Shown here: piece by piece, positions 6,401 through 45,023 of the stretch
How the letters are laid out: each line of letters starts with the position of its first letter
Position numbering within the stretch: the stretch's first letter is position 1
Origin: Nitrospira tepida
Lineage (GTDB): Bacteria; Nitrospirota; Nitrospiria; Nitrospirales; Nitrospiraceae
Reading direction: 5' to 3'
Assembly: GCF_947241125.1 (NCBI RefSeq)
Contig: NZ_OX365700.1
Coordinates: forward strand, 1,612,001-1,676,000
Length of the DNA stretch: 64,000 bases
Translations under genes and position numbers: made by a program
Notes under the pieces: generated by a model
Told to the model about the DNA's origin: nothing
The model's database searches: none
Seen by the model: only the letters and a program-made list of their open reading frames with translations

Positions 6401-6476
6401 AGGAAGGCGCATCCTTGGGACCAGGACTTCCACTCGGATTGGGGTGGGAAACCGGACGAATCCGTGCTTTCGGCAT
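3462..6476 (-). CDS. Hybrid sensor histidine kinase (PAS-PAS-GAF-HisKA-HATPase-REC-REC)
   Basis: 1004 residues with no obvious membrane segment, so a cytoplasmic sensor. In order: a degenerate PAS (about 38-100), a clear PAS with the AIFWVD and [14 protein letters not shown] motifs (170-285), a GAF domain (295-465), then the H box SHEIRTPMN with His492. The ATPase N box lies near 601-612 (NLLSNAVKF), DSGIGIP at 641 and GGTGLGLSI at 670. Receiver 1 spans about 728-850 (phosphoacceptor Asp783) and receiver 2 about 879-995 (Asp929). It is followed by a coupled Hpt gene, making a His-Asp-His-Asp phosphorelay whose outputs are probably the two receiver proteins encoded just upstream on the same strand. 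The signal is unknown. Confidence 0.92.
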
Positions 6477-6579
6477 CGGTCGTTAGACTGTGAACAAGGG
6501 GTGCGCGTGAAATCGTTGAAGAATCAGAAACCGGTCGATACGGCAGCGATGGGGCATGGCTCAGAAGGGGCCGCTTCGG

Positions 6580-7551
6580 CTATGAGCCTCGGCGGACGAG
6601 GTTGCGCCCTTCTTCTTTGGCTTGATACAGCGCCTGATCCGCAGCCCGGATCAGGTCGGTGTGGTGCTTGTCCCGCGAAGGGACCATGCAGGCAATGCCG
6701 AGGCTGATCGTGACCCGGTGTCCCTTGGCGTCGGTAATGTCGAGGGCTTCGACTCGCCGGCGCAGCGATTCGGCGACCTGCGCGGCGCCCTCGGCGGGCG
6801 TGCCAGGAAGGACGATCGTGAATTCGTCCCCGCCGTACCTCGCGACGAGGTCGCCGGGACGGTTGACCGCTCCCATCAGCGCGTCGGCCACCTGTTTCAA
6901 ACACTCGTCCCCGGCTTGGTGCCCATGCGAGTCGTTGTATTCCTTGAACCGATCGATATCGACCATGATCAACGACAGCGGCGTGCTTTCACGGGCGCCC
7001 CGGCGCCACTCCTGGTCGAGGAACTCGTCGAACTGGCGTCGGTTGGTGATGCCCGTGAGACCGTCCAGGCTCGACAGCCTCAGGAGCATTTGATTGGCTT
7101 CCTGCAGTTGCCGCATGACCTCAAGCAGCTCCTGCTCCCGGGATCGGCGGCGTTCGATCTCGTGGATCAGCCGGAGCACCGACCGCACACGGGTCAGGAG
7201 TTCCATCTTGTTGATGGGCTTGCCCACATAGTCCATGGCGCCGGCGGCAAAGGCCAATTGGAGATCGACCGGGTCGGTCTTGACCGTGACCATGATGATC
7301 GGGATGTCGCGCAGCCGCTCCACCGCCTTGAGTTGGCGGCAGGCCTCGATCCCGTTCATCTCCGGCATGATGATGTCCATCAGCACCAGATCGACATGGT
7401 GAACGGAGGGGGGCTGGCCGTCCAAGCCGAGATAGCGAAAGGCGGCCGCGGCGGACTCGGCGAGGAGGACGTCGGTATAGCCGGCCGAGGTCAGGATCGA
7501 TTTCAACAGCAATCGATCGTCGGGGGAATCGTCAACAACCAGGATGGCCAT
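6580..7551 (-). CDS. Response regulator diguanylate cyclase (REC-GGDEF)
   Basis: 323 residues. Receiver domain at 1-125 with DD at 7-8, phosphoacceptor Asp59 ([10 protein letters not shown]) and KPIN near 111. A short coiled linker (128-158) leads to a GGDEF domain with the intact active motif GGDEF at 240-244. An RxxD inhibitory site (RPGD, 231-234) sits the usual distance upstream, so product feedback by c-di-GMP is expected. It makes c-di-GMP from two GTP when phosphorylated. It lies about 100 bases upstream of the hybrid kinase on the same strand and is its likely target. Two PilZ proteins at 36-37 kb are possible readers of the signal. Confidence 0.92.
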
Positions 7552-7610
7552 CGGAGATGCTCGCGGACTGTGTGGCGCGTCAGGTTCGTGACCCGCCGGA
7601 ATGCTAGCAG

Positions 7611-8252
7611 TTACTCCGGATAAACGCCAGGATAAAGCCGTTTGGCGCAGGGAAGACAGAGTCCGTGACTGAAGGCCGCTTCGGAATGGTCCTGAATGTA
7701 TTCCTCGATCTGCTGCCAGTAACCATGGTCGTTGCGGATCTTCTTGCAGCCGGCGCAGATGGGAATGAGCCCCCGGAGCACCTTCACCTCGGCGAGCGCG
7801 CGCTCCAGTTCCTGGTTCCGTTCCTTTAATTCAGTCTCGCGGGCTTTCCGGCGGTCCATCTCCCGCTTCAGCGTCAGGGCCGAGGCCACGCGTGCCGTGA
7901 GCTCGACGTTGTTGACGGGCTTGGTCAGAAAGTCGATGGCGCCGGCGGCGAACGCGTCCTGCAAATAGGAAGTGTCGGTCTTGGCGGTGACCATGATGAC
8001 CGGGATGTCGCTGACGGAGGGGCAGGCCTTGATCGTTCGACAAGCCTCGACCCCGTTGATGCCGGGCATCATGATATCGAGAAGCATCAAGTCCGGTGCC
8101 GGTCCGGGCCGGCCGCCATGATCCATGCCCAATTCCTGGTAGGCCTCCAGGGCCGACCCCGCCAGACGCACGTGCCCGTGCCCAGCCTGTCGGAGGATGG
8201 TTTCGAGCAGGACGCGCTGGTCCGGCGAATCATCGACGATCAGGATGCTCAT
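7611..8252 (-). CDS. Receiver-domain protein with C-terminal cysteine-rich output segment
   Basis: 213 residues from the ATG at 8252, chosen because [10 protein letters not shown] aligns with the start of the neighbouring receiver protein; an in-frame start 17 codons upstream (8303) is also possible, and neither has a strong ribosome site. The receiver has phosphoacceptor motif [10 protein letters not shown] and KPVNN. A coiled coil follows ([20 protein letters not shown]), then a short tail with [17 protein letters not shown] and [12 protein letters not shown]. This paired-cysteine tail is common on receiver proteins but has no settled function. It begins the four-gene phosphorelay cluster. 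Confidence 0.8.
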
Positions 8253-8391
8253 TGGGGCTTCTGCGGCCGGTCGCTGCGACAGGGAGGCATGATGTGGGTT
8301 CATGACAGGATTACCGGCAAGAGTCAGGGACGACGCACATCGATCGCCTGTACCGGAGCAAGTATAGCAGGAGCGGTTCGTCCGCGAGCGT

Positions 8392-8579
8392 CAGGAGCCT
8401 GTCCGACATTGCCGTTCGTGACGAGGTGAAGGAGGTGCTGGCAGATGCAAGGCCACAGGCCGCGAAAAACCGGAAGCGTATTCACTGGAATACGTTGAGG
8501 ATTTTTCGTGGCCGAGAACGAAGCAGATGCCGGTACATCATTCGCCGCAGTAGAACGGTCAGTGACGGACAGGCTCCTA
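8392..8579 (+). mobile_element. 187-bp class MITE-like repeat, copy 1
   Basis: 188 bp with terminal inverted repeats (left AGGAGCCTGTCCGACATTG, right ending GACGGACAGGCTCCTA). About 85-90 percent identical to the element at 32306-32492. It contains a small internal hairpin (GTATTC / GAATAC) and no coding frame that looks like a protein. The outer CTA forms, on the minus strand, the TAG stop codon of the yqeY-type gene. The right end here carries more mismatches than copy 2, so this copy looks older. Confidence 0.8.
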
Positions 8580-9023
8580 GACGAGCTTGGAACGGACGAG
8601 ATCGCTCACCACCTTCCCGTCCGCCGGCCGGCCGCCCAGTTGCGCCATGACGGCCTTCATGACGGCCCCCATGTCCTTCATGGTGGGCGATCCGAACTCC
8701 CGGATGACCGTCTCGACCAGTTGCGTGAGTTGGTCGGATGAGAGGGCTTGGGGCAGATAGCCCTCGATGATCGAGATTTCCTGACGCTCCTTGGCCGCCA
8801 GGTCCTCCCGCCGCGCCTTTTCGAATTGTTCCACCGATTCACGGCGTTGCTTGATCAGGTTGGTCATCACGCGGCTCATTTCGGCGTCGTCAAGGTCGCG
8901 CTTGAGTTCGATTTCGCGGCGTTGGATCGCGGCCTTGATCATCCGGATGACGTCCATACGTAGTTGGTCTTTGGCTTTCATGGCTTGTTGGAGATCGTGC
9001 GTCAGGCGGTCGGACAATGACAT
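8577..9023 (-). CDS. GatB/YqeY domain protein
   Basis: 148 residues, the standard length for the family. MSLSDRLTHDLQQAMKAKD at the start, EISIIEGYLPQALS in the middle and GRPADGKVVSDLV at the end match the YqeY fold, related to the tail domain of GatB, the subunit of tRNA amidotransferase. The standalone protein is thought to touch tRNA but its role is not established. It is usually beside rpsU and dnaG; here it is not. Its stop codon is supplied by the inverted end of the adjacent mobile element. Ribosome site GGAGG lies just upstream. Confidence 0.88.
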   Translation of the reverse strand: MSLSDRLTHDLQQAMKAKDQLRMDVIRMIKAAIQRREIELKRDLDDAEMSRVMTNLIKQRRESVEQFEKARREDLAAKERQEISIIEGYLPQALSSDQLTQLVETVIREFGSPTMKDMGAVMKAVMAQLGGRPADGKVVSDLVRSKLV

Positions 9024-9220
9024 GGGCGGCCTCCTTGCAGGACAACGACAAGAACCTAGTCACCTTAGCCAATCCCGGAGAGGCCGTCAATCGGAGCCGC
9101 GGTCCCAAATCGATGTGTCCGTGGCGTTCATATCGATCATAGAGTAAGATTTGGCCGCATGTGGTACACGAGCGACCGGCACACTTGCACAAGGAAGATC
9201 GGTGAATCACTGGAGGAGTC

Positions 9221-9280
9221 ATCTCCGGCCGCCAAGAATAATTGGAGGGGCGTCCGGTTCAACCGTAGGTTGGTATGGAG
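9221..9280 (-). repeat. Stem-loop repeat, leader copy
   Basis: CTCCGGCCGCC, a 15-20 base loop, then GGCGTCCGGTTCAACC and GGTTGGTATGGAG. Same family as the copies at 13227, 25682 and elsewhere. Its final GGAGG is the ribosome site of the lipoprotein gene starting at 9286. Confidence 0.8.
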
Positions 9281-9285
9281 GCGCC

Positions 9286-9519
9286 ATGAAAATGGGGATT
9301 GGACGAGGGAATGGGATGAGAACAGGGTCGGGTAGCATCGTGACGGGAGGCTTGCTTGCCATCTGGATACTGGCCACGGTCGGCTGTAGCTCGCCGCAAC
9401 CGGTCAAGGGGCCGCCTTCCCCCTCCAATCAGGAAGTCAGAGGCCATGCCGACAGAACATTCGACAAACTGAAAGAAGAAGAGCGGCAGGGGAGGGATGT
9501 CACTCAGCCGATGCGGTAG
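9286..9519 (+). CDS. Small lipoprotein, function unknown
   Basis: 77 residues. A basic start (MKMGIGRGNGMRTGSG), a hydrophobic stretch and a lipobox-like ATVGC predict a lipoprotein of about 45 mature residues that is mostly charged and polar. The start at 9286 is preferred to an upstream GTG because it places the signal peptide at the N-terminus and has GGAGG at the right distance; that GGAGG belongs to the stem-loop repeat. It is convergent with the MFS gene 15 bases away. No family recognised. Confidence 0.62.
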   Translation: MKMGIGRGNGMRTGSGSIVTGGLLAIWILATVGCSSPQPVKGPPSPSNQEVRGHADRTFDKLKEEERQGRDVTQPMR

Positions 9520-9534
9520 CGGCCGTCCGGCGGT

Positions 9535-11046
9535 TTATTCGGACGATTGGCGCACAGGCGCGCGAGGCTTGCCCCGGCTTCGGCGGACGACCCGGTGGAG
9601 GGGCTGAAGGACCGGCAGATGAGCCAGGAGGCGACGGATCGAGCAAAGTCCCTCCGTTCGCAGCTCCCGCAGCCCGGGTAGAAACAGGGCCGACACGGCC
9701 AGCCGCAGACAGCCGGAGACGAGAAATAGTAGAGGGAGATTCGAGACGAGGGACCACTCGATCCCGAAACCCAATAGGCGAGTTGGAAGCCATCCGGCCA
9801 ACCATCCGCCCACCAGGGCCCCCGCAAACCAGCCCATCGCGTTGATCGTGTTCGCCAGCGCCACCGCTCGGCCCTTGTCCCCCGCCGGGACTGCGTCAAA
9901 AATATAATTCTGGAGCCCAAGCGAGAAGCCGGACCAGACCATTCCGGCGACGAAATTGACGCAGATCAGAAAGGTCACGTGGTTGCTGAACAGGTACAAC
10001 ATGGGCAGCACCGGCACGAGGTAGCCGGTGACGGTCAGCACCGCGGCATGTCCGCAACGATCGCCCAGCCGTCCCCAGGCCTTAAGCGAGACGAATTGGC
10101 CCACCATTTGAGCCGCGAGCCAGACGCCATATTCCACATAGCTCAGATGGAGGTCCTGTAGCAGATAGACGACGAAATAGGGGCCGGCCAGCAGGGTCGC
10201 TGCATGCATCAGTCCGGAAAAGCAGAGAAACCGCCTAAAGTCGGGGCTGCTTCGGCGGACCAGGAGGTCGATAAACCCGGCCGATTGGATGGCCGAGTGG
10301 GCAACCGGCACGTCCGCTAGCCGTCCAAGAAAAAAGGAGGACAGTGCCCTGGCTGTTGCCGCGAGCAGAAAGAGCAGGGCAAAGCCGCCCCAGGTTGAAG
10401 ACCAACGCTCGCTGACGTGGAGCAGGAATCCGCCGGCGGCCAGGGCGGCGAAGTTGGCCACTGCCATAAGCTGAGCCCTGCGGCCGAAATATCGGCCGCG
10501 CAGGTTGGGACCGACGATGTCGGTGATGAGGCTGTTCCAGGCCGGGACTGTCACGTGGCCCAGCGCGGCGTAGACCACCACCCCGATGATGAACAGCGCG
10601 GCGGCCTGGTCCGCGATGAGCAAGGGCAACAGAAATAAGGGAAACCAGGCGACTGCCTGTCCGAACGATCCGAAAAGGATGAGCTTCTTGCGAGAAAGGT
10701 GCGAGAGTGCCCGGCTGGTGGCATAGATCTGCGCCCATGCGCCGACCAATTGTGGAAGCGCCGAAAGCCATCCGATTTGAAGCGGCGTCGCTTTGAGCAT
10801 CAGCGCAAAGGCCGAGAAATAATGTTCGCCGATTCCCTGCGCAACGGCCTGGCAAAGGCCGTCGCGGATTCCGCTGGTCCGGCTCTCTTGTTGATCCTTC
10901 TTGGGGAGGCTGGCTAGGGGATGCCGGTGGTCCCGGTCAGGGGCATCGGCTTCTCCCAAAGCTTCAGGCCGGGAGGCTATTGCATTGCGAACAGCGGCGT
11001 GGGGAGAATCCTGAGACGCCTGAACTGTCGCAGAGGCTTGGTTCAC
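9535..11046 (-). CDS. MFS-family transporter
   Basis: 503 residues. After a 60-residue polar N-terminal extension there are about 12 hydrophobic segments. The loop after the second segment pair carries RGRYFGRRAQLM and the protein has repeated glycine- and alanine-rich helices (ALAAGGFLL, GWFAGALVGGWLAG) typical of major facilitator permeases. The substrate cannot be told. The C-terminus is basic and proline-rich. It is divergent from the secreted protein at 11250, with a shared region of about 200 bases between. The long N-terminal extension might mean a start further in, for example near residue 63. Confidence 0.8.
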   Translation of the reverse strand: MNQASATVQASQDSPHAAVRNAIASRPEALGEADAPDRDHRHPLASLPKKDQQESRTSGIRDGLCQAVAQGIGEHYFSAFALMLKATPLQIGWLSALPQLVGAWAQIYATSRALSHLSRKKLILFGSFGQAVAWFPLFLLPLLIADQAAALFIIGVVVYAALGHVTVPAWNSLITDIVGPNLRGRYFGRRAQLMAVANFAALAAGGFLLHVSERWSSTWGGFALLFLLAATARALSSFFLGRLADVPVAHSAIQSAGFIDLLVRRSSPDFRRFLCFSGLMHAATLLAGPYFVVYLLQDLHLSYVEYGVWLAAQMVGQFVSLKAWGRLGDRCGHAAVLTVTGYLVPVLPMLYLFSNHVTFLICVNFVAGMVWSGFSLGLQNYIFDAVPAGDKGRAVALANTINAMGWFAGALVGGWLAGWLPTRLLGFGIEWSLVSNLPLLFLVSGCLRLAVSALFLPGLRELRTEGLCSIRRLLAHLPVLQPLHRVVRRSRGKPRAPVRQSSE

Positions 11047-11249
11047 GGTTCAGACGAGGAAGCCGGCAGTGAATCCATTTGAGGAAGCGTGATCGGTGCT
11101 GAATTATAGCAAATCCCGGCCAAGCCGCCCGGCGCTTGTCGAGAGGGGCCCTATCGTCCGCTTGGCCGCCATGGCACAATAGAGGAATAGAGGGAAGAAG
11201 GGAGCGACCGATTCCAAGAGGGAAGGGGCCAATTGTTGAGAGGGATGTC

Positions 11250-11903
11250 ATGAAGAGCTGGACATTAAAGAATCGATCGGTTGAGGCCGGCGATCTCCTG
11301 CGACTCTGTCTTCTCGGGACCCTGTCTCTGTTCGCCTGGCCGGGAACTGCGGCAGCGGTTGACCTGATGGCGCCGAAGGAGCAGCAGAATACGGAAGTGG
11401 ATCATACGCAGTTGCAGGAGTTCGACCAGCAGCGGAGAGGCGCGCCACAGGCGATTTTCGTCTGGATCAAATTGGCGGAAGGGTTCGAGGAGGAATGGGA
11501 CAGCTTCGGCCGGAAGGGGTGGTACACGCAGGACCCGAGACTGAAGCCGATCGGGGGCGGCAGCTCGGTGTTCAAGCCTGAGACCCCGGTCATCTATATT
11601 GTCTTTGAAGCGGCTCCGTTGGAGGATCCTGCGCTGTTCAGCGCTCAATGGTACTTGGAAGGAGAAGGCGGGAAGCTCTCCGAGAATCCGATCGGCAAGG
11701 ATGCCCTGGAGGTGCCGGGACACTCGCGATACGGGTACCTGGAATTGAAGAAACCTGACGGCGCCTGGCCCAAAGGCAACTACGTGGTAAAAATCTACAT
11801 TACCCCGCTTGGCCAGCAAGCCTTCCATGCCGCAAACCAGGTGGGGACGATGAAGTTCACCATTACCGATCAGCCTCAGCAGACCGGCCAGGCCAAGCCA
11901 TAG
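11250..11903 (+). CDS. Secreted protein of unknown function
   Basis: 217 residues. The start at 11250 gives a Sec signal peptide (LLRLCLLGTLSLFAWPG, cleavage after AAA near residue 35). The mature part is soluble, with AIFVWIKLAEGFEEEWDS, then VYIIFE-like beta strands and WPKGNYVVKIYI, suggesting an Ig-like or beta-sandwich domain. No cysteines are visible in the mature part and no catalytic motif. An upstream frame extension is rejected because it would bury the signal peptide. Not recognised as a named family. Confidence 0.65.
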   Translation: MKSWTLKNRSVEAGDLLRLCLLGTLSLFAWPGTAAAVDLMAPKEQQNTEVDHTQLQEFDQQRRGAPQAIFVWIKLAEGFEEEWDSFGRKGWYTQDPRLKPIGGGSSVFKPETPVIYIVFEAAPLEDPALFSAQWYLEGEGGKLSENPIGKDALEVPGHSRYGYLELKKPDGAWPKGNYVVKIYITPLGQQAFHAANQVGTMKFTITDQPQQTGQAKP

Positions 11904-11967
11904 CGAGATTCACGGTCTTGCGTTCGTTCGGCCCTCCTTTGTAGAGTCACGTCCATCGAGGTCCGCG

Positions 11968-12261
11968 GTGCCGATCTATGAATATCTGGCGCAGCGCTGC
12001 CTGCGCCCACAGCCCTGCTCCAAGCGATTGGAGTATCTGCAATCCATGAGCGAGGCTCCCCTGAGCCGCTGCCGCGAATGCGGGGCGGCCATCCAGCGGG
12101 TGTTCTCCACCTTTGCGGCCCGAACGGGCGCCGTCGGTGTGTCAACGCCGGATCCGACCCCGCTGAATATCACCGGGATTCAGGCTCCGGCTTCGATGCC
12201 GAGCGCAGAAGGGGGAGGAGCCTGCGGGGGCCATGGCCATGATCACGGAGGCGGGGCGTGA
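11968..12261 (+). CDS. FmdB-like zinc-ribbon protein with His-rich tail
   Basis: 97 residues from a GTG. MPIYEYLAQRC at the start and CRECGAAIQRVFS match the FmdB putative regulatory family, in which two CxxC-type pairs bind zinc. Here the first pair is altered (RCLRPQPCSK), so metal binding may be changed. The C-terminus is GACGGHGHDHGGG, which could bind metal. The next small gene follows 18 bases on and is probably in the same transcript. The role of the family is poorly established. Confidence 0.7.
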   Translation: MPIYEYLAQRCLRPQPCSKRLEYLQSMSEAPLSRCRECGAAIQRVFSTFAARTGAVGVSTPDPTPLNITGIQAPASMPSAEGGGACGGHGHDHGGGA

Positions 12262-12279
12262 CGAGGAAGGGGAGGACCG

Positions 12280-12570
12280 GTGGAGATGGCCGAGCGCGTG
12301 AAGGAGACCGACCCGGAGAAATTGACCTTGCTCTACGAGCGGTTTCGTGATGTCTGCCTGGTGGAGAAGGAAGTCTGGACTGAAATCTACATGCCGCGGG
12401 ACGTCAAACAGGGGCCGGTCCTGACGAATGTGCAGGTTCGGTATGACGTCGAAATCAACAAGCCCCACGTCACAGACGTGCTCGAAGCCAATATTCCGAT
12501 GGGCAAAGCTGCGCTCGGGGCGGCGATCGAGCAATACCGCGACCACATCAGTTTTTATCGGAAAGCGTAA
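12280..12570 (+). CDS. Conserved-looking small protein, function unknown
   Basis: 96 residues from GTG, or 94 from the ATG six bases later; the ribosome site GAAGGGGAGG suits either. Predominantly soluble, with KLTLLYERFRDVCLVEKEVWTEIYMP and a C-terminal amphipathic helix. No motif recognised. It lies 18 bases after the FmdB-like gene, so an operon is likely, and it converges with glutathione peroxidase across 30 bases. Confidence 0.6.
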   Translation: MEMAERVKETDPEKLTLLYERFRDVCLVEKEVWTEIYMPRDVKQGPVLTNVQVRYDVEINKPHVTDVLEANIPMGKAALGAAIEQYRDHISFYRKA

Positions 12571-12600
12571 GCGCGTGGGTGGGAATGGAGAAGGCCCCGG

Positions 12601-13218
12601 TCAGTTGGCCAAGGCCTTCTCGACATCCTGAACGATCTGGGCGGACAGGGGTTTGGTCCGGTGATGGTACTTGGCCACGACCCTGCCGGATCGATCCACC
12701 AGATACTTCTGGAAGTTCCATTCGACCTCGCCGGGGAACGGGCTTTCTTCCGTCAGATATCGGTAGAGCGGGTGCTTGTCCGGTCCCTTGACACTGATCT
12801 TGCCGAACAGCGGAAAGGTCAGGCTGTACTTCGTGTAACAGAAGCTCTTGATCTCCTGATTCGTCCCCGGCTCCTGCTGGCCGAAATTGTTGGCTGGAAA
12901 AGCCAGAATTTCAAAGCCCTGCTCCTTGTATGTGTCGTACATCGTTTGCAAGTCGGAGTATTGCGGGGTATTGCCGCAGAAACTGGCCGTGTTCACGAGC
13001 AACAGGACCTTACCTTTGAACTGTCCGAGGGACAGGGGACGGCCGTCGATATCGTCCAGGGTAAAATCATAGAGGCCGGTCGTCTTAGCCGCCATCGCCA
13101 GCATGCCTTCCTGGGCCGCCTGGGCGCCGCCCGGTTCAAAGAGATAGCCGGAGTTGCAGCCTGCGACGAGTCCTGCCCCGAGACCGATGCTCATCACCCA
13201 CCGACGGACCGTAGACAT
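12601..13218 (-). CDS. Glutathione peroxidase family lipoprotein
   Basis: 205 residues. Residues 1-21 are a lipoprotein signal ending LVAGC (Cys21). The enzyme follows: LVNTASFCGNTPQY with peroxidatic Cys81 (cysteine form, not selenocysteine), then LAFPANNFGQQEPG with the family Gln, and VEWNFQKYLVD with Trp and Asn. It should reduce peroxides in the periplasm, probably with thioredoxin-like donors. The start at 13218 has GGAGGGG six bases upstream; this ribosome site is the end of a stem-loop repeat. A start six codons upstream would lie inside that repeat and is less likely. Confidence 0.9.
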   Translation of the reverse strand: MSTVRRWVMSIGLGAGLVAGCNSGYLFEPGGAQAAQEGMLAMAAKTTGLYDFTLDDIDGRPLSLGQFKGKVLLLVNTASFCGNTPQYSDLQTMYDTYKEQGFEILAFPANNFGQQEPGTNQEIKSFCYTKYSLTFPLFGKISVKGPDKHPLYRYLTEESPFPGEVEWNFQKYLVDRSGRVVAKYHHRTKPLSAQIVQDVEKALAN

Positions 13219-36385: not shown

Positions 36386-36730
36386 CTACCCGCTCCAGGC
36401 GATGTCATGTCCGGAGGACCCTGCGTGGTTGCGAAGGCGTCGGATTCCGGAGAGCCGTTCTTTGGCGCTTCGAGCATACTTGAGAAACTCCACGCCGAAC
36501 GTGCGCGCTTTGACCCAACGGACGCGGGCCAGGGCAATCGCGATGGGGTCTTCCCCTCCCGGACATTCGATTTGGAGAGAGAGGTAGGTGCCGACTGCCG
36601 GGGTGACTTCGCTCCGAACCGCGCAGCCCGGTCCGGACAGATCGACCAGCCTGCCCTTTCCGGCAACGTCGTCCCCGCAAAACCGTACAGGGTAGCGCAG
36701 CGACACTCGGTGATGTGACCTGGGGCGCAT
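36386..36730 (-). CDS. PilZ-domain protein 1
   Basis: 114 residues. Starts RPRSHHRVSLRYPVRFCGDD, with the arginine cluster of PilZ, then VDLSGPGCAVRSE in place of the D/N-x-S-x-x-G motif, and VRWVKARTFGVEFLKY. Likely c-di-GMP binding, although the RxxxR motif is loose (HHRVSLR). Full domain length. Possibly reads c-di-GMP made by the cyclase at 6.6-7.6 kb. Confidence 0.76.
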   Translation of the reverse strand: MRPRSHHRVSLRYPVRFCGDDVAGKGRLVDLSGPGCAVRSEVTPAVGTYLSLQIECPGGEDPIAIALARVRWVKARTFGVEFLKYARSAKERLSGIRRLRNHAGSSGHDIAWSG

Positions 36731-36985: not shown

Positions 36986-37282
36986 TTACATGTTCTGGAG
37001 GCGATCCAATTGCTCTCTCGCGCCGCTGTCGTAACGGAGAAACTCAAGGCCGAGCCGGCCATGACGGACCCAACGGACCTTGGCCAGGGGGATGGAAACC
37101 GGAGCGGAGGCTTCCTGAAGGATTTCGAGGGCTACATAGGCTCCCTGTTGTAACGAGGTGTGGCTTTCGATGGCGCACCCTGGAGTGGACAGGTTGATGA
37201 GCTGACCCAGGCCGGCCCCCCAATCACCCAGGAAGTGGATCGGAAGTCGAAGCACCGTTCGTGGGCTGGAGCGGAGATTCAT
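36986..37282 (-). CDS. PilZ-domain protein 2
   Basis: 98 residues, about 40 percent similar to PilZ protein 1: RSSPRTVLRLPIHFLGDWGA, INLSTPGCAIES, VRWVRHGRLGLEFLRYDS. Both share a C-terminal helix with a basic patch. Likely a local duplication. Separated from protein 1 by 255 bases with no gene. Confidence 0.76.
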   Translation of the reverse strand: MNLRSSPRTVLRLPIHFLGDWGAGLGQLINLSTPGCAIESHTSLQQGAYVALEILQEASAPVSIPLAKVRWVRHGRLGLEFLRYDSGAREQLDRLQNM

Positions 37283-37482: not shown

Positions 37483-37551
37483 TCTCTCCGGCGGCGTCAA
37501 TGAAGAGGGGCTACGCCCGATGAGCCGCCGGTTCACACAAAGTGCGGTATG
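37483..37551 (-). repeat. Stem-loop repeat abutting attL
   Basis: CTCTCCGGCGGCGTC, a loop with GGGCTACGCCC, GAGCCGCCGGTTC and TGCGGTATGG. Its last bases overlap the first base of the att repeat at 37550. Confidence 0.72.
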
Positions 37552-37594
37552 GTGCCCCCGACACGAATTGAACGTGCGACACGCGGTTTAGGAA
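37550..37594 (-). repeat. attL (copied 3' end of tRNA-Arg)
   Basis: 45 bp identical to 44294-44338. Includes the CCA end and T arm of the tRNA up to the anticodon loop, and no 5' half, so it is not a working tRNA. Confidence 0.9.
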
Positions 37595-37637
37595 CACGAA
37601 TTAGGTATAAACACCAAACCATAGCAAGACACACCAT

Positions 37638-37684
37638 ACAACGGCAGGCACAGGCCTATCAACGGGTTTGTGACCTGCCGTTGT
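37638..37684 (+). terminator. Strong hairpin, possible terminator
   Basis: ACAACGGCAGGCACA pairs with TGTG-A-CCTGCCGTTGT, 15 pairs with one bulge. The tract that follows (TCTTTGTG) is only partly T-rich, so termination is likely but not certain. It is just inside the left end of the element. Confidence 0.45.
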
Positions 37685-37712
37685 TCTTTGTGTCCTCCTG
37701 TGGTATCCCCTC

Positions 37713-37755
37713 ACCGTGACTGTTTTCGGACTCGAACCGCGACTGGAACCGTGAC
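37713..37755 (+). promoter_or_regulatory. Left candidate integrase arm sites
   Basis: ACCGTGAC at 37713 and 37748 with ACCGCGAC at 37736 between. The same octamer recurs at the right end of the element (44202, 44214). Confidence 0.4.
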
Positions 37756-37971
37756 GCGGAAGACAGGGGGTGGGGGTCTTATTTTCTGCTCGGCCTGGCT
37801 AAGGACGAGGCCGGGGGTAGGTTTCCCGGTGGGCCGGGTGGCCGATGGGAGGCCCTCGTAGACATGGCCAGAGGCATATGGCGACCCCTTCCCCCGGCCG
37901 TTCGAGTTTCCATGTTTCCCAAAAAGGAAACCGCCGACGCATTTCCTGGAGTTTCGTATCCTAGGTGAAAT

Positions 37972-38670
37972 GTGGTGAGTTGGGACGACACCAGCAAGCT
38001 GTTCTTCTTTCTCTACGCCCCAGAACAGAAGCTGTTTCGGTATACGAGGCCTGGTATGGCCTTTGGTGAAGAAACGGGACAGTCTGTACATTTCGACAAT
38101 GGGCATTTCACAAAAGTCCAAATTCCCAAGGGGATAGGAGAAATCTTACTTCACAGAGAGATGCCGAATGGAAAGACGGGTGAGGAATTTGCCACTAGCT
38201 GGAAAACGCTCAATGTTGCCGAAGAAGGATACAACGGACTTGCCTTTACCATCGTCAATCGCACGCCGGATACCGATGTGAAAATGCTCGCATGGAACAA
38301 AGAACACCCTGACGACCTCTATACAGATTGTGTGGCCATCGAGCACGGGGCGGAAGTACGGGTATGGCTCTACTTAGCACCTGACAAGTTTCATGATTTG
38401 CTCAATCTCAACTGGCGAGCGAAATTTCTTGAAGTATCGCTTGAAACGAGCCCGTCAATTCATAACCTCAAGTTCCCATTAGAGGAGAATGACAAGACAA
38501 AAATGCGGGAAGGAACATTCATCAGTGATTCGTCCTTGTCACACCGTAAGCTCGTAATTCACACGTATGAGATCACTGTAAAAGACTTGCCTGTGGTGCG
38601 TTTACAAGACTCTAAGCCCTCACTGCTCAATCACCTGTATGAGCTGCTGAGATTTCGCTTCGGTAGATAA
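37972..38670 (+). CDS. Unrecognised cargo protein A of the integrative element
   Basis: 232 residues, GTG start at 37972. Mixed beta-rich protein with LFFFLYAPEQKLFRYTRPGM, NGLAFTIVNRTPDTDVKMLA, WLYLAPDKFHDLLNLNWRAK and a helical C-terminus rich in Leu and Arg. No cysteine motif, transmembrane segment or known catalytic site visible. AT content is clearly higher than that of the flanking host genes. It is followed 62 bases later by the second unrecognised gene. In such islands these positions often hold defence genes, but nothing in the sequence proves it. Confidence 0.72.
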   Translation: MVSWDDTSKLFFFLYAPEQKLFRYTRPGMAFGEETGQSVHFDNGHFTKVQIPKGIGEILLHREMPNGKTGEEFATSWKTLNVAEEGYNGLAFTIVNRTPDTDVKMLAWNKEHPDDLYTDCVAIEHGAEVRVWLYLAPDKFHDLLNLNWRAKFLEVSLETSPSIHNLKFPLEENDKTKMREGTFISDSSLSHRKLVIHTYEITVKDLPVVRLQDSKPSLLNHLYELLRFRFGR

Positions 38671-38732
38671 GACCTGCCCGTAACGGACCCTTACTCGGAT
38701 TCGACCTGCATGGTAAGGCTGTAGGAGGGGAC

Positions 38733-39683
38733 GTGCCCAAGGGAAAATCGAAGGAGGAAGAGTTTGATCCGACCTTAGAGCTGAAGACTCTTGCCTTACG
38801 GGATGAACCTCTTGTTCATCAATATAGAGACCTTCACTACCAACTCGTCCTTGACCAACTTCAAGCGACGGGTCAACGCATTGCAAGTAGAGAACACACA
38901 ACCCCACTCTCTGCCGCTCAGCGGAGATCATTGTTGAAGCGGCATGCCCGTCTTGACAAACAAATCTGTGAAAAGTACCGCATTAGTGGTTTTCATGGTG
39001 GCGATCCGTATATCGTAAAACGTGACAATTGGCTTGAGACCCTCCGCGTACCATTAAGCCAACCTCTTACGATAGAGACTAATTGGCAATCCTCTTTCTA
39101 TTCTCCGCGCGTCCAGTTCTATGTTCTCCCGAAGGATGCTGCGGTCTTTCACTCCCACAGCAGAATAGTATGCCAATTGCCTTCCCTGCCCAAAAAAGTT
39201 CCGGCGGATTCTCTGCCTATTCTGACAATTCATCTGGATCTATCGAAGGTCAAAGGGAATCACCTTGCTGGTTTGGCCACAAAGTTCAAAGAGGCGGTGA
39301 AGCGATGTCTGGAAGAACTTCCGAGAAGCCGGAGGAAACCGGCGTCCACCTGGCAACAGAACGTGAAACGTGACTACCATCGCTTCTATCTACATTTTTA
39401 TCGGGCGGTGCCCTACCGTTGGATCGCGGCATATGAAAAGACGGGGGCACTGCCAAAAGGCCCCTTCGATATGGCAGTGCCTAAAGAATCCTCTATCCGT
39501 GAGTCCGTTGAGCGAGTCCACTACATTGTCTTCAGCCGCCCCTTCAAGGCCCGCAAAACTCTATCCCATCGGGCTAATACCCGCTTAGACGCTGAAATAC
39601 AGAGCTTTAACTGCCCGGATCATGGCAAAGACTGCTCAGATACTTGCGGATATGCAAAAGACTTCATCAAGAAATTAGGCTAG
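38733..39683 (+). CDS. Unrecognised cargo protein B of the integrative element
   Basis: 316 residues, GTG start. Charged N-terminus (KGKSKEEEFDPTLELKTLAL), a helical, arginine-rich stretch (SAAQRRSLLKRHARLDKQIC), a beta-rich middle (FYSPRVQFYVLPKDAAVFHS), and a C-terminal cysteine motif CPDHGKDCSDTCGYAKDF that could bind metal. No named family seen. Lower GC than the host. Probably co-transcribed with cargo gene A. Confidence 0.72.
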   Translation: MPKGKSKEEEFDPTLELKTLALRDEPLVHQYRDLHYQLVLDQLQATGQRIASREHTTPLSAAQRRSLLKRHARLDKQICEKYRISGFHGGDPYIVKRDNWLETLRVPLSQPLTIETNWQSSFYSPRVQFYVLPKDAAVFHSHSRIVCQLPSLPKKVPADSLPILTIHLDLSKVKGNHLAGLATKFKEAVKRCLEELPRSRRKPASTWQQNVKRDYHRFYLHFYRAVPYRWIAAYEKTGALPKGPFDMAVPKESSIRESVERVHYIVFSRPFKARKTLSHRANTRLDAEIQSFNCPDHGKDCSDTCGYAKDFIKKLG

Positions 39684-39798
39684 TTCGCATCTCTTCCCCC
39701 TAGGAACAAACTCCCCGACTTTGTCCGCGATTCTCCTCTTGTAGAGGCCGCGCATCGGCACGGCACGGGAGGCTCTCACATAGCAGGGGAGAAAAAGG

Positions 39799-40011
39799 AT
39801 GAATAGCGATGATCGACTTGTGACGGCGCAGGAACTAGAAGCGCTGGGGGTGATGCGGAAGGGCACGGCCTATCGAATGGCCGCGAACAATCAGTTGCCC
39901 CACTATGTTGTGGGATGCTCTGGGAGGGGAGTTCGCTTTCGGGTGGGTGAGGTTCTAGAAGCGCTCCGACGACCAGCTTTAACACAGCGGGGGGGCTATG
40001 ACGACCGATGA
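39799..40011 (+). CDS. Small helix-turn-helix protein (excisionase/AlpA-like)
   Basis: 70 residues. RLVTAQELEALGVMRKGTAYRMA is a MerR-like or AlpA-like winged helix-turn-helix, and HYVVGCSGRGVRFRVGEVLEALRR closes the fold. Proteins of this size in integrative elements control excision or integrase expression. It overlaps the start of the primase-like gene by 14 bases. Confidence 0.78.
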   Translation: MNSDDRLVTAQELEALGVMRKGTAYRMAANNQLPHYVVGCSGRGVRFRVGEVLEALRRPALTQRGGYDDR

Positions 40012-40462
40012 TCTCTTGAGCCGAGTGGACCGCGTACGCTCTCGCGGTCCTGGTCGATGGACGGCAAGGTGCCCGGCGCATGCGGATCGCTCGCCCTCGT
40101 TATCGGTGACTGAAGGCGAGCGAGGCATTTTGCTTCGATGTTGGGCCGGCTGCGACCTGGCGGCTATTTGTGCGGCGCTTGGCATTCGACCAGCCGATCT
40201 GTTCTATGACCAGCGGCCTGATCCGGCTGCTTTGGCGGAGTCTCGGCGGCGACGGACGGAACGCGAGCGAGCGGACATAGCTGACGGCTGTCATGCGGAT
40301 ACCTTACGCGATGCGGAGCAAGCAATTCTCGCGGCGCGCCTTCTCAATATCTCGCAATGCTGTGATGGACAGCTAGATCGGGCACTGGACACGATCGCCT
40401 CTGCGCATGCGGTCCTGAGCGAACAAGGAGCGGATTACTATGAATGGCTCGCAACGCTTTGA
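39998..40462 (+). CDS. CHC2-type zinc-finger primase-like protein
   Basis: 154 residues. RWTARCPAHADRSPSLSVTE and RGILLRCWAGCDLAAICAAL carry the C-x2-H...C-x3-C zinc finger of phage and plasmid primases. A helical tail replaces the catalytic TOPRIM domain, so this protein recognises template rather than polymerising. Overlaps the next gene by 23 bases, so the two work together in element replication. Confidence 0.84.
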   Translation: MTTDDLLSRVDRVRSRGPGRWTARCPAHADRSPSLSVTEGERGILLRCWAGCDLAAICAALGIRPADLFYDQRPDPAALAESRRRRTERERADIADGCHADTLRDAEQAILAARLLNISQCCDGQLDRALDTIASAHAVLSEQGADYYEWLATL

Positions 40463-41825
40463 AGCGGCCTGCCGGCAGTTCGAAGATAGTCAACGGAAGG
40501 AGCAGGCCGCGATGGGCCTAATGGACCATGATCCCGAACAGGACGCCAGTTCGACTAATACTCCTGTGCCGGATGAGTGGCCGGTACTCGATCAAGCCGC
40601 GCTGTATGGTCTGGCTGGTGAAATGGTCAAATTGATCGAACCGCATACAGAGGCTGACCCTATCGCGTTGCTGGTGTCTTGCTTGGCCGAAGTAGGCACT
40701 ATGCTGAATCGGGCACCTCACCTGATTCTCGACGGAAGTTATCATCCCCTCATCTTCTGGCCGGTATTGGTCGGACAAACCAGCAAAAGCCGGAAAGGAA
40801 CGGCTGGGAAACGGATCAACACGGTGTTGAGCCTGGCAGATGATTCGTGGACCCGTGGTGAGTATCGGGGCACCCTTTCCAGCGGTGAAGGTCTCGCCTT
40901 TGCTGTGCGCGATGCACAGTACAAGGAGGAGCCGATCAAGGAAAAAGGCCGACTGATCGGTGAGACAGTGACGATCTGTCTTGATCCTGGCGTTGAAGAT
41001 AAGCGGCTGTTCCTTGTTCAAACCGAATTCGGCGCGGTTCTTCGTGTCATGGCGCGAGAAGGGAACTCGCTATCAGGGGTCTTGCGCGATGCCTGGGACG
41101 GACTGAGCCTTGCTCCCATGACGAAGGCAAACCGGATTCGCGCGACAGATCCACATATCGGCATTGTGGGGCATGTGACGAGGGACGAATTGCTCCGCAA
41201 CTTGACCGACACGGAATGCTCGAATGGATTCGGCAATCGATTTGTGTGGTTTGTCGTGCGACGGTCTAAGGAATTGCCATTCCCCTCCGTGCCGGACGAA
41301 ACCGTCCTTCGGACCTTGGCGGAAGAACTCGGGCGTGTGATTCGACGCGGTCGGACCATCGGGGCGTTAGGTCTATCGCCTTCTGCTCGCGATGGCTGGA
41401 AGGCGATCTATCACGATCTCTCTGCGGATCGGCCTGGCCTGGCGGGTGCCCTCCTGGCGCGGGGTGAGGCGCACGTCATGCGCCTCTCGGCGCTCTACGC
41501 GGTGCTGGACGGGCAGACGGACATTAACCTCGTGCACCTGGAAGCCGCGTCGGCCTTGTGGCAATACGCCGAAGCTTCTAGCCGTCTGATCTTTGGCGAT
41601 TCGACTGGAGATCCTGTCGCAGATGCAATTTTGAGAGCCGTCAGAACGAGCGGCGAAGTTTCCGATTCACAGGTGTCAGACCTGTTCTCACGAAATGTGT
41701 CCGGGCACAGACTGGAACGAGCGAAGACGATCCTTGCGACGGCAGGGTTGATTCACTGGGACACGATCAAGACAGATGGACGGTCCCGGAAAGTCTGGCG
41801 ACCAGGTACGAAAAAAACGAATTAA
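40440..41825 (+). CDS. DUF3987-like replication ATPase
   Basis: 461 residues. A P-loop-like GQTSKSRKGTAGKRINTVLS near residue 119, then beta-rich ATPase-like segments and NGFGNRFVWFVVRRSKELPF. The C-terminus is winged-helix-like (DAILRAVRTSGEVSDSQVSD). DUF3987 proteins follow a primase zinc finger in many mobile elements and are thought to act in replication. Its last 18 bases form the left arm of a long hairpin. Confidence 0.76.
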   Translation: MNGSQRFEAACRQFEDSQRKEQAAMGLMDHDPEQDASSTNTPVPDEWPVLDQAALYGLAGEMVKLIEPHTEADPIALLVSCLAEVGTMLNRAPHLILDGSYHPLIFWPVLVGQTSKSRKGTAGKRINTVLSLADDSWTRGEYRGTLSSGEGLAFAVRDAQYKEEPIKEKGRLIGETVTICLDPGVEDKRLFLVQTEFGAVLRVMAREGNSLSGVLRDAWDGLSLAPMTKANRIRATDPHIGIVGHVTRDELLRNLTDTECSNGFGNRFVWFVVRRSKELPFPSVPDETVLRTLAEELGRVIRRGRTIGALGLSPSARDGWKAIYHDLSADRPGLAGALLARGEAHVMRLSALYAVLDGQTDINLVHLEAASALWQYAEASSRLIFGDSTGDPVADAILRAVRTSGEVSDSQVSDLFSRNVSGHRLERAKTILATAGLIHWDTIKTDGRSRKVWRPGTKKTN

Positions 41826-41879
41826 ACGAAAAAAGGGAATGCGCTAAGAGGCTTATTTCGTTTCTTTCGTTTATTTCGT
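41808..41879. repeat. Long inverted repeat of ACGAAA iterons
   Basis: Left arm 41808-41831 has three ACGAAA-type units at nine-base spacing (the middle one is ACGAAT); right arm 41856-41879 has three TTTCGT units. The arms pair at 21 of 24 positions around a 24-base loop. It begins inside the 3' end of the DUF3987-like gene. Could be a terminator, a recombination or replication site, or a protein-binding array. Confidence 0.8.
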
Positions 41880-41899
41880 AACCCATGAGAGGAAACACC

Positions 41900-42187
41900 A
41901 TGAGCTACCTGGACATTCTCCGCCGTGTGGAACAGGGAAATAGTCCTATGCCTGATTCCGAAGGACCTCAGAATGTGGACCCGGCTTCGCTTAGTACGAA
42001 AAAAGAAAAAAGCTGTCCCCTCTACTGGCAGTCCATGGACGGGGTAATCAACGGGCCGGCGGTCCTGGATCACCTACACCTGGCGACGGATGTCGCGGGT
42101 GTTGAGCGGTGCTGGTTCTGCCTTTCCTATCGGGGCCGACTGGTTTGGGTTCGGGAGGACCTCCTCCGAAAAGTAGAAGGGGAGTAG
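41900..42187 (+). CDS. Small protein of the integrative element, unknown
   Basis: 95 residues from the ATG at 41900 (GAGAGG upstream); a start five codons earlier is possible. SYLDILRRVEQGNSPMPDSE then CPLYWQSMDGVINGPAVLDH, CWFCLSYRGRLVWVREDLL. The CxxC near residue 76 might bind metal. Not recognised. Confidence 0.62.
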   Translation: MSYLDILRRVEQGNSPMPDSEGPQNVDPASLSTKKEKSCPLYWQSMDGVINGPAVLDHLHLATDVAGVERCWFCLSYRGRLVWVREDLLRKVEGE

Positions 42188-42191
42188 AGAA

Positions 42192-42512
42192 GTGCGATTC
42201 GAGAAGGGCCGGCGCAAGACAGGCGGGCGGAAACGAGGCACGCCGAACAAAGGCACCATTGAAATGAAGTCGTTCGCACTGGGACTGCTCGAAGATCCCG
42301 AATACCAGACAAGGCTCAGGGCTCGGATTCTCAGCGGCAAGGCTCCGCACATGGAAGTCCTGTTGCACCACTACACGTATGGGAAACCGAAAACCACCCT
42401 CGAAGCAAGGCAGGTCACGATCATTGTGGATCGCTCCTGCAAGGACATCGTGGAGGCGCAGGCAACCGCCTTGGAAGACCATTCAACGCGAGATGGCTCA
42501 GGCCAGCTCTAG
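42192..42512 (+). CDS. Small basic protein, terminase-small-subunit-like N-terminus
   Basis: 106 residues, GTG start. RFEKGRRKTGGRKRGTPNKG is the basic start common in phage terminase small-subunit and DUF5681-type proteins. The remainder has LLEDPEYQTRLRARILSG and HHYTYGKPKTTLEA. No large terminase subunit or capsid gene is near, so a packaging role would need a helper phage. The family is uncertain. Confidence 0.6.
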   Translation: MRFEKGRRKTGGRKRGTPNKGTIEMKSFALGLLEDPEYQTRLRARILSGKAPHMEVLLHHYTYGKPKTTLEARQVTIIVDRSCKDIVEAQATALEDHSTRDGSGQL

Positions 42513-42595
42513 CCGATCTGCCGGACCCCGGCAACGGACAATTCTCCGCCCGCTTGTAGTCAACGGCTTCCGCCTCCTCCTATTCCACTCGCTTC

Positions 42596-42781
42596 CTATT
42601 TCCCCTTCGGTAAAATTCCCTTCCGCTCTAGCTCTTGGATCTTCGCTTCGGCCAATTCAATCAAAAAGTCCTTCACCGTCTTGCCTTCGTGAGCAGCGGC
42701 CATTTTCACGCGGCGCATGAGGTCGCGGGGGATGTCCCGGAAGTTCCAGGCTCCGGTGCCTTCTGGCGGGGTCCGTGCCAT
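42596..42781 (-). CDS. Ribbon-helix-helix protein (Arc/CopG-like)
   Basis: 61 residues. GAWNFRDIPRDLMRRVKMAA, HEGKTVKDFLIELAEAKIQE show a strand followed by two helices as in Arc/CopG repressors. Divergent from the second ribbon-helix-helix gene across 106 bases with a 24-base palindrome. Probable autoregulator. Confidence 0.75.
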   Translation of the reverse strand: MARTPPEGTGAWNFRDIPRDLMRRVKMAAAHEGKTVKDFLIELAEAKIQELERKGILPKGK

Positions 42782-42827
42782 TAGAAGCCAAGGCTAGCAC
42801 CAGACTCCCCTATGCGTCAAATATAAC

Positions 42828-42859
42828 TTGACATAGTTAAATATCATATGATAGTTAAC
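42828..42859 (+). promoter_or_regulatory. Operator and promoter between two divergent repressor genes
   Basis: A 24-base palindrome at 42836-42859 with 22 of 24 positions symmetric, centred on CATATG, in the AT-rich gap between two ribbon-helix-helix genes. TTGACA at 42828-42833 overlaps its left edge, so a bound repressor would block that promoter. Confidence 0.72.
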
Positions 42860-42887
42860 TTATCATCGCGGAAAGGGGGTGAGGGAA

Positions 42888-43043
42888 ATGAAAATGGTCC
42901 GGTTGTTGATTCAGGTGCCTGAGCCGATCAAGGCGCAATTGGATACCTTGCGGCAAGGGGGCACGACAGCGAGCGGGTTTATTCGGCATCTGTTGGAGGA
43001 ACATTTCAAACACGCTCCAGTGACGGGGCAGAAAGGAAGGTGA
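42888..43043 (+). CDS. Second ribbon-helix-helix protein
   Basis: 51 residues, with GGGGGTGAGGG upstream. Reads MKMVRLLIQVPEPIKAQLD, then LRQGGTTASGFIRHLLEEH: a beta strand, helix, turn and helix of the CopG fold. It ends four bases before the integrase start, so it probably regulates integrase expression. Confidence 0.78.
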   Translation: MKMVRLLIQVPEPIKAQLDTLRQGGTTASGFIRHLLEEHFKHAPVTGQKGR

Positions 43044-43046
43044 GCG

Positions 43047-44315
43047 ATGGCGCGAGTGGGACGAAAGGATCGAGGCTTGCTGGCTAAGAAGGATTCGGCT
43101 GGCAAGTTGGTGTGGTTTGTGCGGCTGTATCACGAAGGCCGGGAGCGCCGGTTCGGCAGCTTTCCCAACAAGACGAAGGCCCGGGAATTCTATGAGAAGG
43201 CCAAGCTTGAGCAGAAAGAGGGCAGATTTTTCCCAGAGCGGTATCAGCACGGTGGCTATGAACCGGTCGATGCGGTGATAGACCGTTACCTGTTGACCAT
43301 AGGAGCAAAGAAACAGATGACTCAGGTCGCAGAGCGCTATTTTGCTGAGTGGTGGAAAAACTACTTTGCTGGGAAACGGCTGAATGCAATCACTGTTACG
43401 GCATTGGAAGAGGCGCGGCAATCGCTGCTGGCGACCGTAGTTGTCGAGGCCAAGGACGAAAAGGGAACGGATCGGCTCATGACCCCTCAGCGGGTAAACC
43501 GTTACATGGAATGGTTGCGACATGTGCTTAATGGAGCGGCGCGGCAAGGGAAGCTGGCAAATAATCCGGTCCTCAAGCTGTCGATGTACAAGGAGCCGAA
43601 GGGAAAGACGCGATTTCTCTCGCTGGAGGAAGAGAAGGCGCTGTTGAAGCAGTTGGGGTCGGTTCACGGTTCTTGGGCACGGTTGGCGATCCTCACCGGA
43701 TTGCGCCAGGCCGAACAGTTCCGGCTTCAGTGGAAGGATGTGGACCTGGAGCGAGGCATCCTGACGTTGCTGACCACCAAGGCGGGTGGGGTGCAGTATG
43801 TCCACCTGAACGAAGAGGCGAAGGCGATTCTGCGGGGGTTCGATTCGTGGCAGCGGTCGAAGTGGGTCTTCCCATCCGAAAATCCGGCTACCCCTCTGGA
43901 TGCTCGGAACTTCTATGGCCGTGTGTGGATGCCCGCGGTCAAGGATGCGGGGATAGAGTGGGCTACATGGCATGACCTCCGCCATACCTTCGCCTCTCGG
44001 CTTGCGATGACAGGCCACAACGAGGGCACTATTGCGGCCCTGCTGCGACATTCGACCACGGCCCTGGTCAAACGCTACGCTCACCTGAGTCCGTCGCACC
44101 TGAAGGCGGCTGTTGAAGGTGTAGCAGGGTTTGGGAAGACCTCGGAACGGAGTCAGGAGCGAGGAGTCCGAGTCGAGGAGTCTACCTCGATTTCGGATGG
44201 AACCGTGACCGAAACCGTGATGCCGGGTTCGGTTGGAGAGAAGAGCGGTAATCTTGAAGCTGCGGAAGTCGGCGTGACTGTTGGGGAAAAGATTGGTGCC
44301 CCCGACACGAATTGA
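43047..44315 (+). CDS. int: Tyrosine site-specific integrase
   Basis: 422 residues. An AP2-like arm-binding start (KDSAGKLVWFVRLYHEGRER), a SAM-like core-binding domain, then the catalytic domain with Arg in TGLRQAEQFRLQW, HDLRHTFASRLAMTG (His and Arg), LLRHSTTALVKRYAH (His and Tyr). Full set R-H-R-H-Y. The gene runs into the att site, so the last seven codons are read from the tRNA sequence, ending PDTN. The right candidate arm sites lie inside its 3' end. Confidence 0.93.
   Translation: MARVGRKDRGLLAKKDSAGKLVWFVRLYHEGRERRFGSFPNKTKAREFYEKAKLEQKEGRFFPERYQHGGYEPVDAVIDRYLLTIGAKKQMTQVAERYFAEWWKNYFAGKRLNAITVTALEEARQSLLATVVVEAKDEKGTDRLMTPQRVNRYMEWLRHVLNGAARQGKLANNPVLKLSMYKEPKGKTRFLSLEEEKALLKQLGSVHGSWARLAILTGLRQAEQFRLQWKDVDLERGILTLLTTKAGGVQYVHLNEEAKAILRGFDSWQRSKWVFPSENPATPLDARNFYGRVWMPAVKDAGIEWATWHDLRHTFASRLAMTGHNEGTIAALLRHSTTALVKRYAHLSPSHLKAAVEGVAGFGKTSERSQERGVRVEESTSISDGTVTETVMPGSVGEKSGNLEAAEVGVTVGEKIGAPDTN
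44202..44221 (+). promoter_or_regulatory. Right candidate integrase arm sites
   Basis: ACCGTGAC at 44202 and ACCGTGAT at 44214, about 80 bases from attR, matching the three sites near attL. They lie in the integrase coding sequence. Confidence 0.4.
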
Positions 44316-44338
44316 ACGTGCGACACGCGGTTTAGGAA
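44294..44338 (-). repeat. attR (in the 3' half of tRNA-Arg)
   Basis: 45 bp identical to 37550-37594. Insertion restored the tRNA exactly, including its CCA end. Confidence 0.9.
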
Positions 44339-44370
44339 ACCGCTGCTCTATCCAACTGAGCTACGGGGGC
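44294..44370 (-). tRNA. tRNA-Arg (anticodon CCT)
   Basis: 77 bases with acceptor GCCCCCG / CGGGGGC, anticodon arm GCGGT-TTCCTAA-ACCGC and encoded CCA. Target of the integrative element, whose integrase gene overlaps its 3' end by 22 bases. Confidence 0.94.
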
Positions 44371-44495: not shown

Positions 44496-44912
44496 CTATT
44501 GACGGTTGGCTTGATCCCGCTTGCAGCTCTCTTCCGCCAGCATGCGCTGTCCGGCTGAGGCGTCCTTGGGGATGCGCGCCATGCAGGCATCCAACGTGTC
44601 GCCCTGGGTTCCTGACGAGGCCCGATCTCCGCTCTTCGTCGAGGCCGTGCCGACAATGCTTTGGCGAACGGCTTCATCGCGCCGGCAGCTTTCTTCGGCC
44701 ACCATGCGGGCGCCGGCTGTGGAATCCTTCGGGATTCTGGCCAGACAGGCATTCAGCTCTCCGGTGGCATCGGCTCCGCCTCGCACAGCGGTCCCGGTTG
44801 ATGGGGTCGCCCCGGAGCCGCCCGTCATACTGCCCTGTTCGGTGGCGCACGCAGCCAGTCCAAGAAGGAAGACGCTACTGAGCACAGTTGATCGGACGGA
44901 GATCCTGTTCAT
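44496..44912 (-). CDS. Lipoprotein with a duplicated cysteine repeat
   Basis: 138 residues from the ATG at 44912 (GAGGAGGG upstream). Lipobox LGLAAC. Two near-identical 30-residue units: ACLARIPKDSTAGARMVAEE-SC and ACMARIPKDASAGQRMLAEE-SC, joined by a flexible linker, each followed by RRDEAVRQ or KRDQANRQ. Two cysteines per unit could form disulphides. Unknown function; the repeat suggests a helical hairpin or multimer. Confidence 0.7.
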   Translation of the reverse strand: MNRISVRSTVLSSVFLLGLAACATEQGSMTGGSGATPSTGTAVRGGADATGELNACLARIPKDSTAGARMVAEESCRRDEAVRQSIVGTASTKSGDRASSGTQGDTLDACMARIPKDASAGQRMLAEESCKRDQANRQ

Positions 44913-45023
44913 ACGGTGAACCCTCCTCAATAGGATAACCATGATCGGCGATAGGTAGAGGCCTGTCGGCTGAGGGATGGGTTATAACGAACTGGCCCGC
45001 CGAAGGCAAGCTTCATAAGAAGG

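Follow-up and report, generated by a model that had tools for sequence, protein, structure and literature searches.

Small islands in which an integrase, alpA and a DUF3987-type primase lie together in ~6.7 kb have been described in Vibrionaceae as PICMI (PMC10803314), whose authors regard insertion at fis as a hallmark and ask how a helper phage activates the alpA regulon. In a different type of element, FseA, a DUF2285 regulator of an integrative and conjugative element, activates the excision-factor gene rdfS (PMC10359603), and tmRNA islands of the I55 type, which carry intY and alpA, are moved by a jumbo phage (PMC12595487). How islands carrying integrase, alpA and primase genes are switched on is an open question.

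The window, a stretch of 64,000 nucleotides from Nitrospira tepida (contig NZ_OX365700.1, positions 1,612,001 to 1,676,000), contains an element of ~6.8 kb with ten genes between two identical 45-bp direct repeats, which were found by comparison within the window sequence (Table 1). The chance expectation of an exact repeat of this length is near 1e-20 in 9 kb. The right copy of the repeat forms the 3' terminus of a gene for tRNA-Arg(CCT), a classic kind of insertion site for tyrosine integrases. A preliminary description of this DNA had placed exact att repeats at both ends of the element, and on re-examination these were confirmed, as were its coordinates and broad gene content; the tRNA target and the AlpA-like helix-turn-helix (HTH) gene are features that it lacked. 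Searches of the ten island proteins against Pfam, PHROG, NCBIfam and PADLOC gave no match to a family of capsid or conjugation proteins, which bears out the earlier statement that such genes are missing. The gene content includes neither the relaxase nor the conjugation genes of an integrative and conjugative element, and no match to the capsid-size or capsid genes or to the psu/sid genes of P4-like and cfPICI satellites was obtained among the ten genes. Judged by the integrase, the CHC2 finger and the DUF3987-type primase, the island is a genuine small satellite-like integrative element with a replicative core, as had been proposed. Outside the island, two adjacent small proteins on its left (window 36386-36730 and 36986-37282, both on the minus strand) appear by eye to have PilZ-type-like domains, and a small lipoprotein-like gene on its right (44496-44942, minus strand) carries, also by eye, a duplicated ARIPKD-SAG-RM-AEESC-RD motif.

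Table 1. Features of the island in the window, and copies of the RNA leader found at sibling loci.
Feature	Position	Strand	Match or evidence
Left att repeat, 45 bp	37550..37594		exact copy of 44294-44338
P0001, putative accessory (cargo) gene, 232 aa	37972..38670	+	no significant library match; one relative
P0002, slot gene upstream of alpA, 316 aa	38733..39683	+	relatives in G105 and G321; slot comparison
AlpA/excisionase-like HTH protein, 70 aa	39799..40011	+	Pfam HTH_17 (PF12728) 4.5e-5; TIGR01764 excise 7e-4
CHC2 zinc-finger primase part	39998..40462	+	PHROG DNA primase 3e-12
DUF3987-type primase/ATPase, 461 aa	40440..41825	+	PHROG DNA primase 8e-8; Thermobifida phage P318 DUF3987 protein 3e-27
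100-aa protein	41885..42187	+	ORF; no significant family-library match
106-aa protein with GGR-x-GTPNK motif	42192..42512	+	homologue in sibling island G210
RHH1, divergent Arc/MetJ-like regulator, 61 aa	42596..42781	-	PHROG Arc-like 0.0065; 87-95% identical in 8 sibling islands
RHH2, small protein just before integrase	42879..43043	+	~48-84% identical beside integrase in siblings
Tyrosine integrase	43047..44315	+	Pfam Phage_integrase PF00589 4.6e-23; siblings 44-80% identical
Right att repeat, tRNA gene 3' end	44294..44338		repeat match and tRNA call
tRNA-Arg(CCT), integration target	44294..44370	-	ARAGORN; Rfam RF00005
Leader copies (ranges given)	L073:719-821; L074:342-442; L092:363-462; L054:5786-5883(-); L061:9972-10076(-)		end at slot-gene start codon
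Leader copies (locus only)	L075, L082, L088, L089, L091, L093, L096, L071, L101, L106-L113		as above; all copies together stand before many unrelated genes

The core genes listed in the preliminary description were recovered with unequal clarity. The integrase, the CHC2 finger and the DUF3987-like protein stood; the 461-aa primase did not match Pfam DUF3987 itself, and its label comes from similarity to an annotated phage protein. The ribbon-helix-helix pair was weaker, RHH1 having a marginal Arc-like match and RHH2 matching nothing in the family libraries, so that the assignment of RHH2 rests on its conservation across islands. A terminase small subunit was considered for the 106-aa gene, which gave no phage match; a similar-looking protein in the same place in the island of genome G147 matched phrog_15261 (1.2e-10) and, weakly, a terminase small subunit (0.005), and the assignment is kept as a hint through that protein.

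The island resembles PICMI in its size of ~6-7 kb, in combining an integrase, AlpA and a DUF3987-type primase, in having no capsid genes, and in carrying accessory genes of unassigned function. The three genes that characterize PICMI are co-located here, with an AlpA match of 24.1 bits that lies below the Pfam cutoff of 27 and a DUF3987 assignment made by similarity. Unlike PICMI, the island belongs to Nitrospiraceae, has split CHC2 and DUF3987 proteins, and possesses a ribbon-helix-helix pair beside the integrase and a gene upstream of alpA. Its att site is in tRNA-Arg(CCT) rather than at fis, and the element is therefore not filed as a PICMI. As far as gene content shows, it would work like one, and no helper phage is known for the window island. 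Like islands of the I55 type, it combines an integrase with AlpA, has direct repeats at an RNA gene, lacks transfer genes of its own and belongs to a group in which defence cargo occurs, but those islands have in common an ~18-kb region that includes homologues of YqaJ and RadC, whereas the window island measures 6.8 kb.

We then compared the island with its relatives. The window genome (4.73 Mb) has no congener in the genome collection, and its best matches were within its own family, in which 45 of the 175 genomes encode integrase relatives at E <=1e-60; 18 sibling islands were retrieved for comparison from these genomes. Members of the family are inserted at tRNA-Arg(CCT), Gly(CCC), Pro(TGG), Thr(CGT), Thr(TGT) and Met(CAT), several have long att repeats of their own, and a second island of the same type is present in the window genome at tRNA-Gly(CCC). 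These results indicate that the window island belongs to a sizeable family of Nitrospiraceae islands and looks ordinary among them. The most conserved parts are RHH1, in eight islands, and RHH2 adjoining the integrase, and the pair is found in most islands; even between islands that differ in tRNA target and in host genus, RHH1 is far better conserved than its neighbours. The primase module, by comparison, is freely exchanged among siblings. Two siblings were tested for other cargo, and both carry recognisable defence genes, placed between the primase and the ribbon-helix-helix pair and not left of alpA: G135 has an HKD-Snf2 helicase with a methyltransferase before RHH1, and G257 has an FRG-type PDC-S15 protein there. 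The G135 genes (L051:3009-9581, or 6421-12993 reversed) are DISARM-like.

The preliminary description had singled out the two left-hand genes, P0001 and P0002, as lower-GC, unrecognised cargo and as the best candidate for an undescribed defence or interference module. Their composition (GC 0.47 for P0001 and 0.50 for P0002, versus ~0.58 for the rest of the island) agrees with that account, and neither protein gave a significant match in Pfam, PHROG, NCBIfam or PADLOC. PADLOC defence models did not match either one at E up to 1, plasmids and viral contigs contained no match, and a search of solved structures found nothing. The structure prediction that had been suggested was carried out with AlphaFold, and its confidence was too low for use (pLDDT 34 for P0001, mean pLDDT 44 for P0002). 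The two genes were never found together outside the window in 396 phylum genomes and 175 family genomes; each was found without the other, and the absence of joint conservation is what the preliminary description itself had named as counting against its proposal. That the two genes form an anti-phage or helper-interference module is in our judgement very improbable: they are adjacent, point in the same direction and share a low GC content and the lack of a known family, and defence genes do occur in sibling islands, but each gene occurs alone, neither matches PADLOC, the defence genes of the two tested siblings sit elsewhere, and P0002 occupies a regulatory position next to alpA, as described below. 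Of the cargo position claimed for both genes, the part concerning P0001 as an accessory gene stood, and the part concerning P0002 did not.

Relatives of P0002 were found in G105 (56% identical) and G321 (24% identical), with a remnant in G091. In G105, the sibling island that carries this relative occupies the same tRNA-Arg site, and the gene immediately precedes alpA; we therefore collected the alpA loci of the family. Twenty-five were obtained, one of which was cut by a contig end. In 21 of the 24 informative loci, a same-strand gene of ~130-330 aa was located directly upstream of alpA (binomial p about 1e-4 versus random strand), and the other three had an oxidoreductase-like gene, a membrane protein and nothing, respectively. 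The slot genes, these 21 plus three from protein searches, fell into ~13 families that showed no significant similarity to one another in phmmer comparisons; a phmmer link between P0002 and the G285 protein (E 0.018 in 24 sequences) was not significant after multiple testing. The profile-profile check that had been proposed likewise gave no significant link between P0002 and the other slot families. From these comparisons, P0002 is one version of an exchangeable gene held in a fixed place beside alpA, and it thus behaves as a control gene would, unlike cargo. Two observations speak against the slot: G147 has divergent genes in place of a same-strand gene, and at one locus the place is taken by the oxidoreductase-like gene mentioned above.

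Within the P0002 family, C294, H297, C301 and C305 are invariant even at 24% overall identity, and the C-terminal motif that they form, C-x2-H-G-x2-C-x3-C, is likely a zinc site. Residues 204-262 may form a helix-turn-helix, a reading made by eye and with a predicted structure of low confidence. Together with its place beside alpA, these features make P0002 a probable DNA-binding regulator of the operon of alpA and the primase; it should be noted that the protein has two relatives and a remnant, and that the case for its conserved position comes mainly from the slot comparison. A DUF2285 (FseA/QseM) assignment was dropped, as no Pfam family matched P0002 at E up to 1. FseA nevertheless serves as a working analogy, made without a claim of homology, in that a DNA-binding protein of a mobile element switches on an excision factor. 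The two differ, since P0002 has no Pfam match and hence no membership in DUF2285, and its gene immediately precedes alpA in an island without conjugation genes. We also considered whether P0002 could be a replication initiator or an accessory protein of the primase instead of a transcriptional regulator. It is found beside replication genes in three element lineages (with CHC2/DUF3987, with a large primase-helicase-like protein, and with AAA_25, the G321 relative overlapping a gene for an AAA_25 helicase close to a split integrase); however, in two of the three lineages P0002 adjoins alpA and not the primase, and the place beside alpA is common to the other slot families, so we regard a replicative role as unlikely. 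In the same region of G321 (L009:14797-18560), three genes match PADLOC SEFIR/TIR-type models near the P0002 relative and the split integrase.

With P0002 read as a regulator, P0001 is left to be accounted for. Its sole relative among the 396 phylum and 175 family genomes is a 28% identical protein in G147, the gene for which overlaps the start of a DpnII-like nuclease gene (Pfam DpnII-MboI 8.5e-8; PADLOC helical-REase 2e-12) that is followed by a gene for a 243-aa protein. The three-gene row (L007:8364-10554) is a possible uncharacterised defence cluster, and nothing else that was found connects P0001 with defence. One distant relative beside a DpnII-like nuclease makes a defence role for P0001 alone possible, and P0001 might act as a sensor or accessory factor of a defence module, of which the window copy would be a remnant or a stand-alone version. 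The G147 row lies in an island at tRNA-Leu in which alpA, CHC2 and primase follow the same order as in the window, in keeping with such a role; nevertheless, there is a single distant relative, the window copy has no nuclease gene next to it, and the predicted model provides no usable fold, and we consider this explanation of P0001 rather doubtful.

The regions upstream of the slot genes were conserved across unrelated slot families, and they contain a leader that folds into a three-way junction with three covarying helices and a pseudoknot. In a first alignment, 15 of 22 pairs were changed on both sides, and no shuffle reached the observed values; in a second, model-fitted alignment the count was 17 of 22. 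In 16 of 21 copies, against a mean of 0.26 and a maximum of 3 after shuffling, a segment immediately ahead of the Shine-Dalgarno sequence complements the CCUGG loop of the third hairpin, and in all four copies with a changed loop a matching change was present. A second model of the leader detected further copies in genomes or contigs outside its training. Where the frame was intact, every one of these ended at the start codon of a gene for a protein of 136-284 aa, in most cases followed by a small HTH gene of the AlpA or MerR type. The leader is a new structured RNA: no Rfam 15 family matched it at E up to 1, which also rules out int-alpA of Rfam, and none was found in phages, in plasmids or, by pattern search, in IMG/VR. 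Matches in the phylum sample came from 9 of 148 genomes, all of the same family. A second, different conserved leader (CTTGGAGTGGTATGGT...TGCAGGAGG) lies ~100 nt upstream of slot genes in G321, G275 and G333 (loci L087, L094, L095 and L090).

The window genome has one copy of the leader, located in its second island. In the window element itself, none was found with two models and with filters off, and just the Shine-Dalgarno region (38720-38735) resembles the leader. P0001 ends 62 bp before P0002, within the stretch that the leader would occupy, and P0001 may have replaced the leader in this element. We propose, tentatively and with the doubt outweighing our confidence, that the islands share a control cassette made up of an RNA leader ending at a start codon, an exchangeable regulator drawn from many unrelated families, and alpA with the primase, and that the window variant keeps the Shine-Dalgarno region and P0002 with P0001 in the leader's place. 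Such a cassette is not described in the literature searched.

The explanation of the whole locus that we find probable on balance is a satellite-like island with a control module running from P0002 through alpA to the primase, in which P0002 is the slot regulator and P0001 the only passenger gene. Starting from what the sequence establishes (the att sites, the tRNA target, the gene content, the relatedness of the islands, the fixed slot and the fact that the pair is not conserved), the island would operate as follows. The tyrosine integrase would insert it into the 3' end of tRNA-Arg(CCT). P0002, the AlpA excisionase or regulator and the two-part primase (CHC2 finger and DUF3987 protein) would make up a lifestyle module that reads in one direction and may be co-transcribed, and the right end would hold a control unit of divergent RHH1 and RHH2-integrase. 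By binding DNA, P0002 would set when alpA and the primase are switched on, and hence excision, which AlpA would bring about, and replication; mobilisation would presumably depend on a helper phage.

These results correct a likely misreading of the window, in that not every hypothetical gene of an island is cargo. The gene upstream of alpA is nearly constant in its presence yet changing in its identity, and in many islands it is preceded by a conserved RNA; it is therefore a direct place to look for the way in which such islands are switched on. The parts worth following are this exchangeable gene beside alpA and the RNA leader of the sibling islands. If the proposed cassette is correct, the exchangeable gene would set the signal that triggers the island, be it a helper phage, the state of the host or a rival element, and the RNA would gate translation of the regulator.
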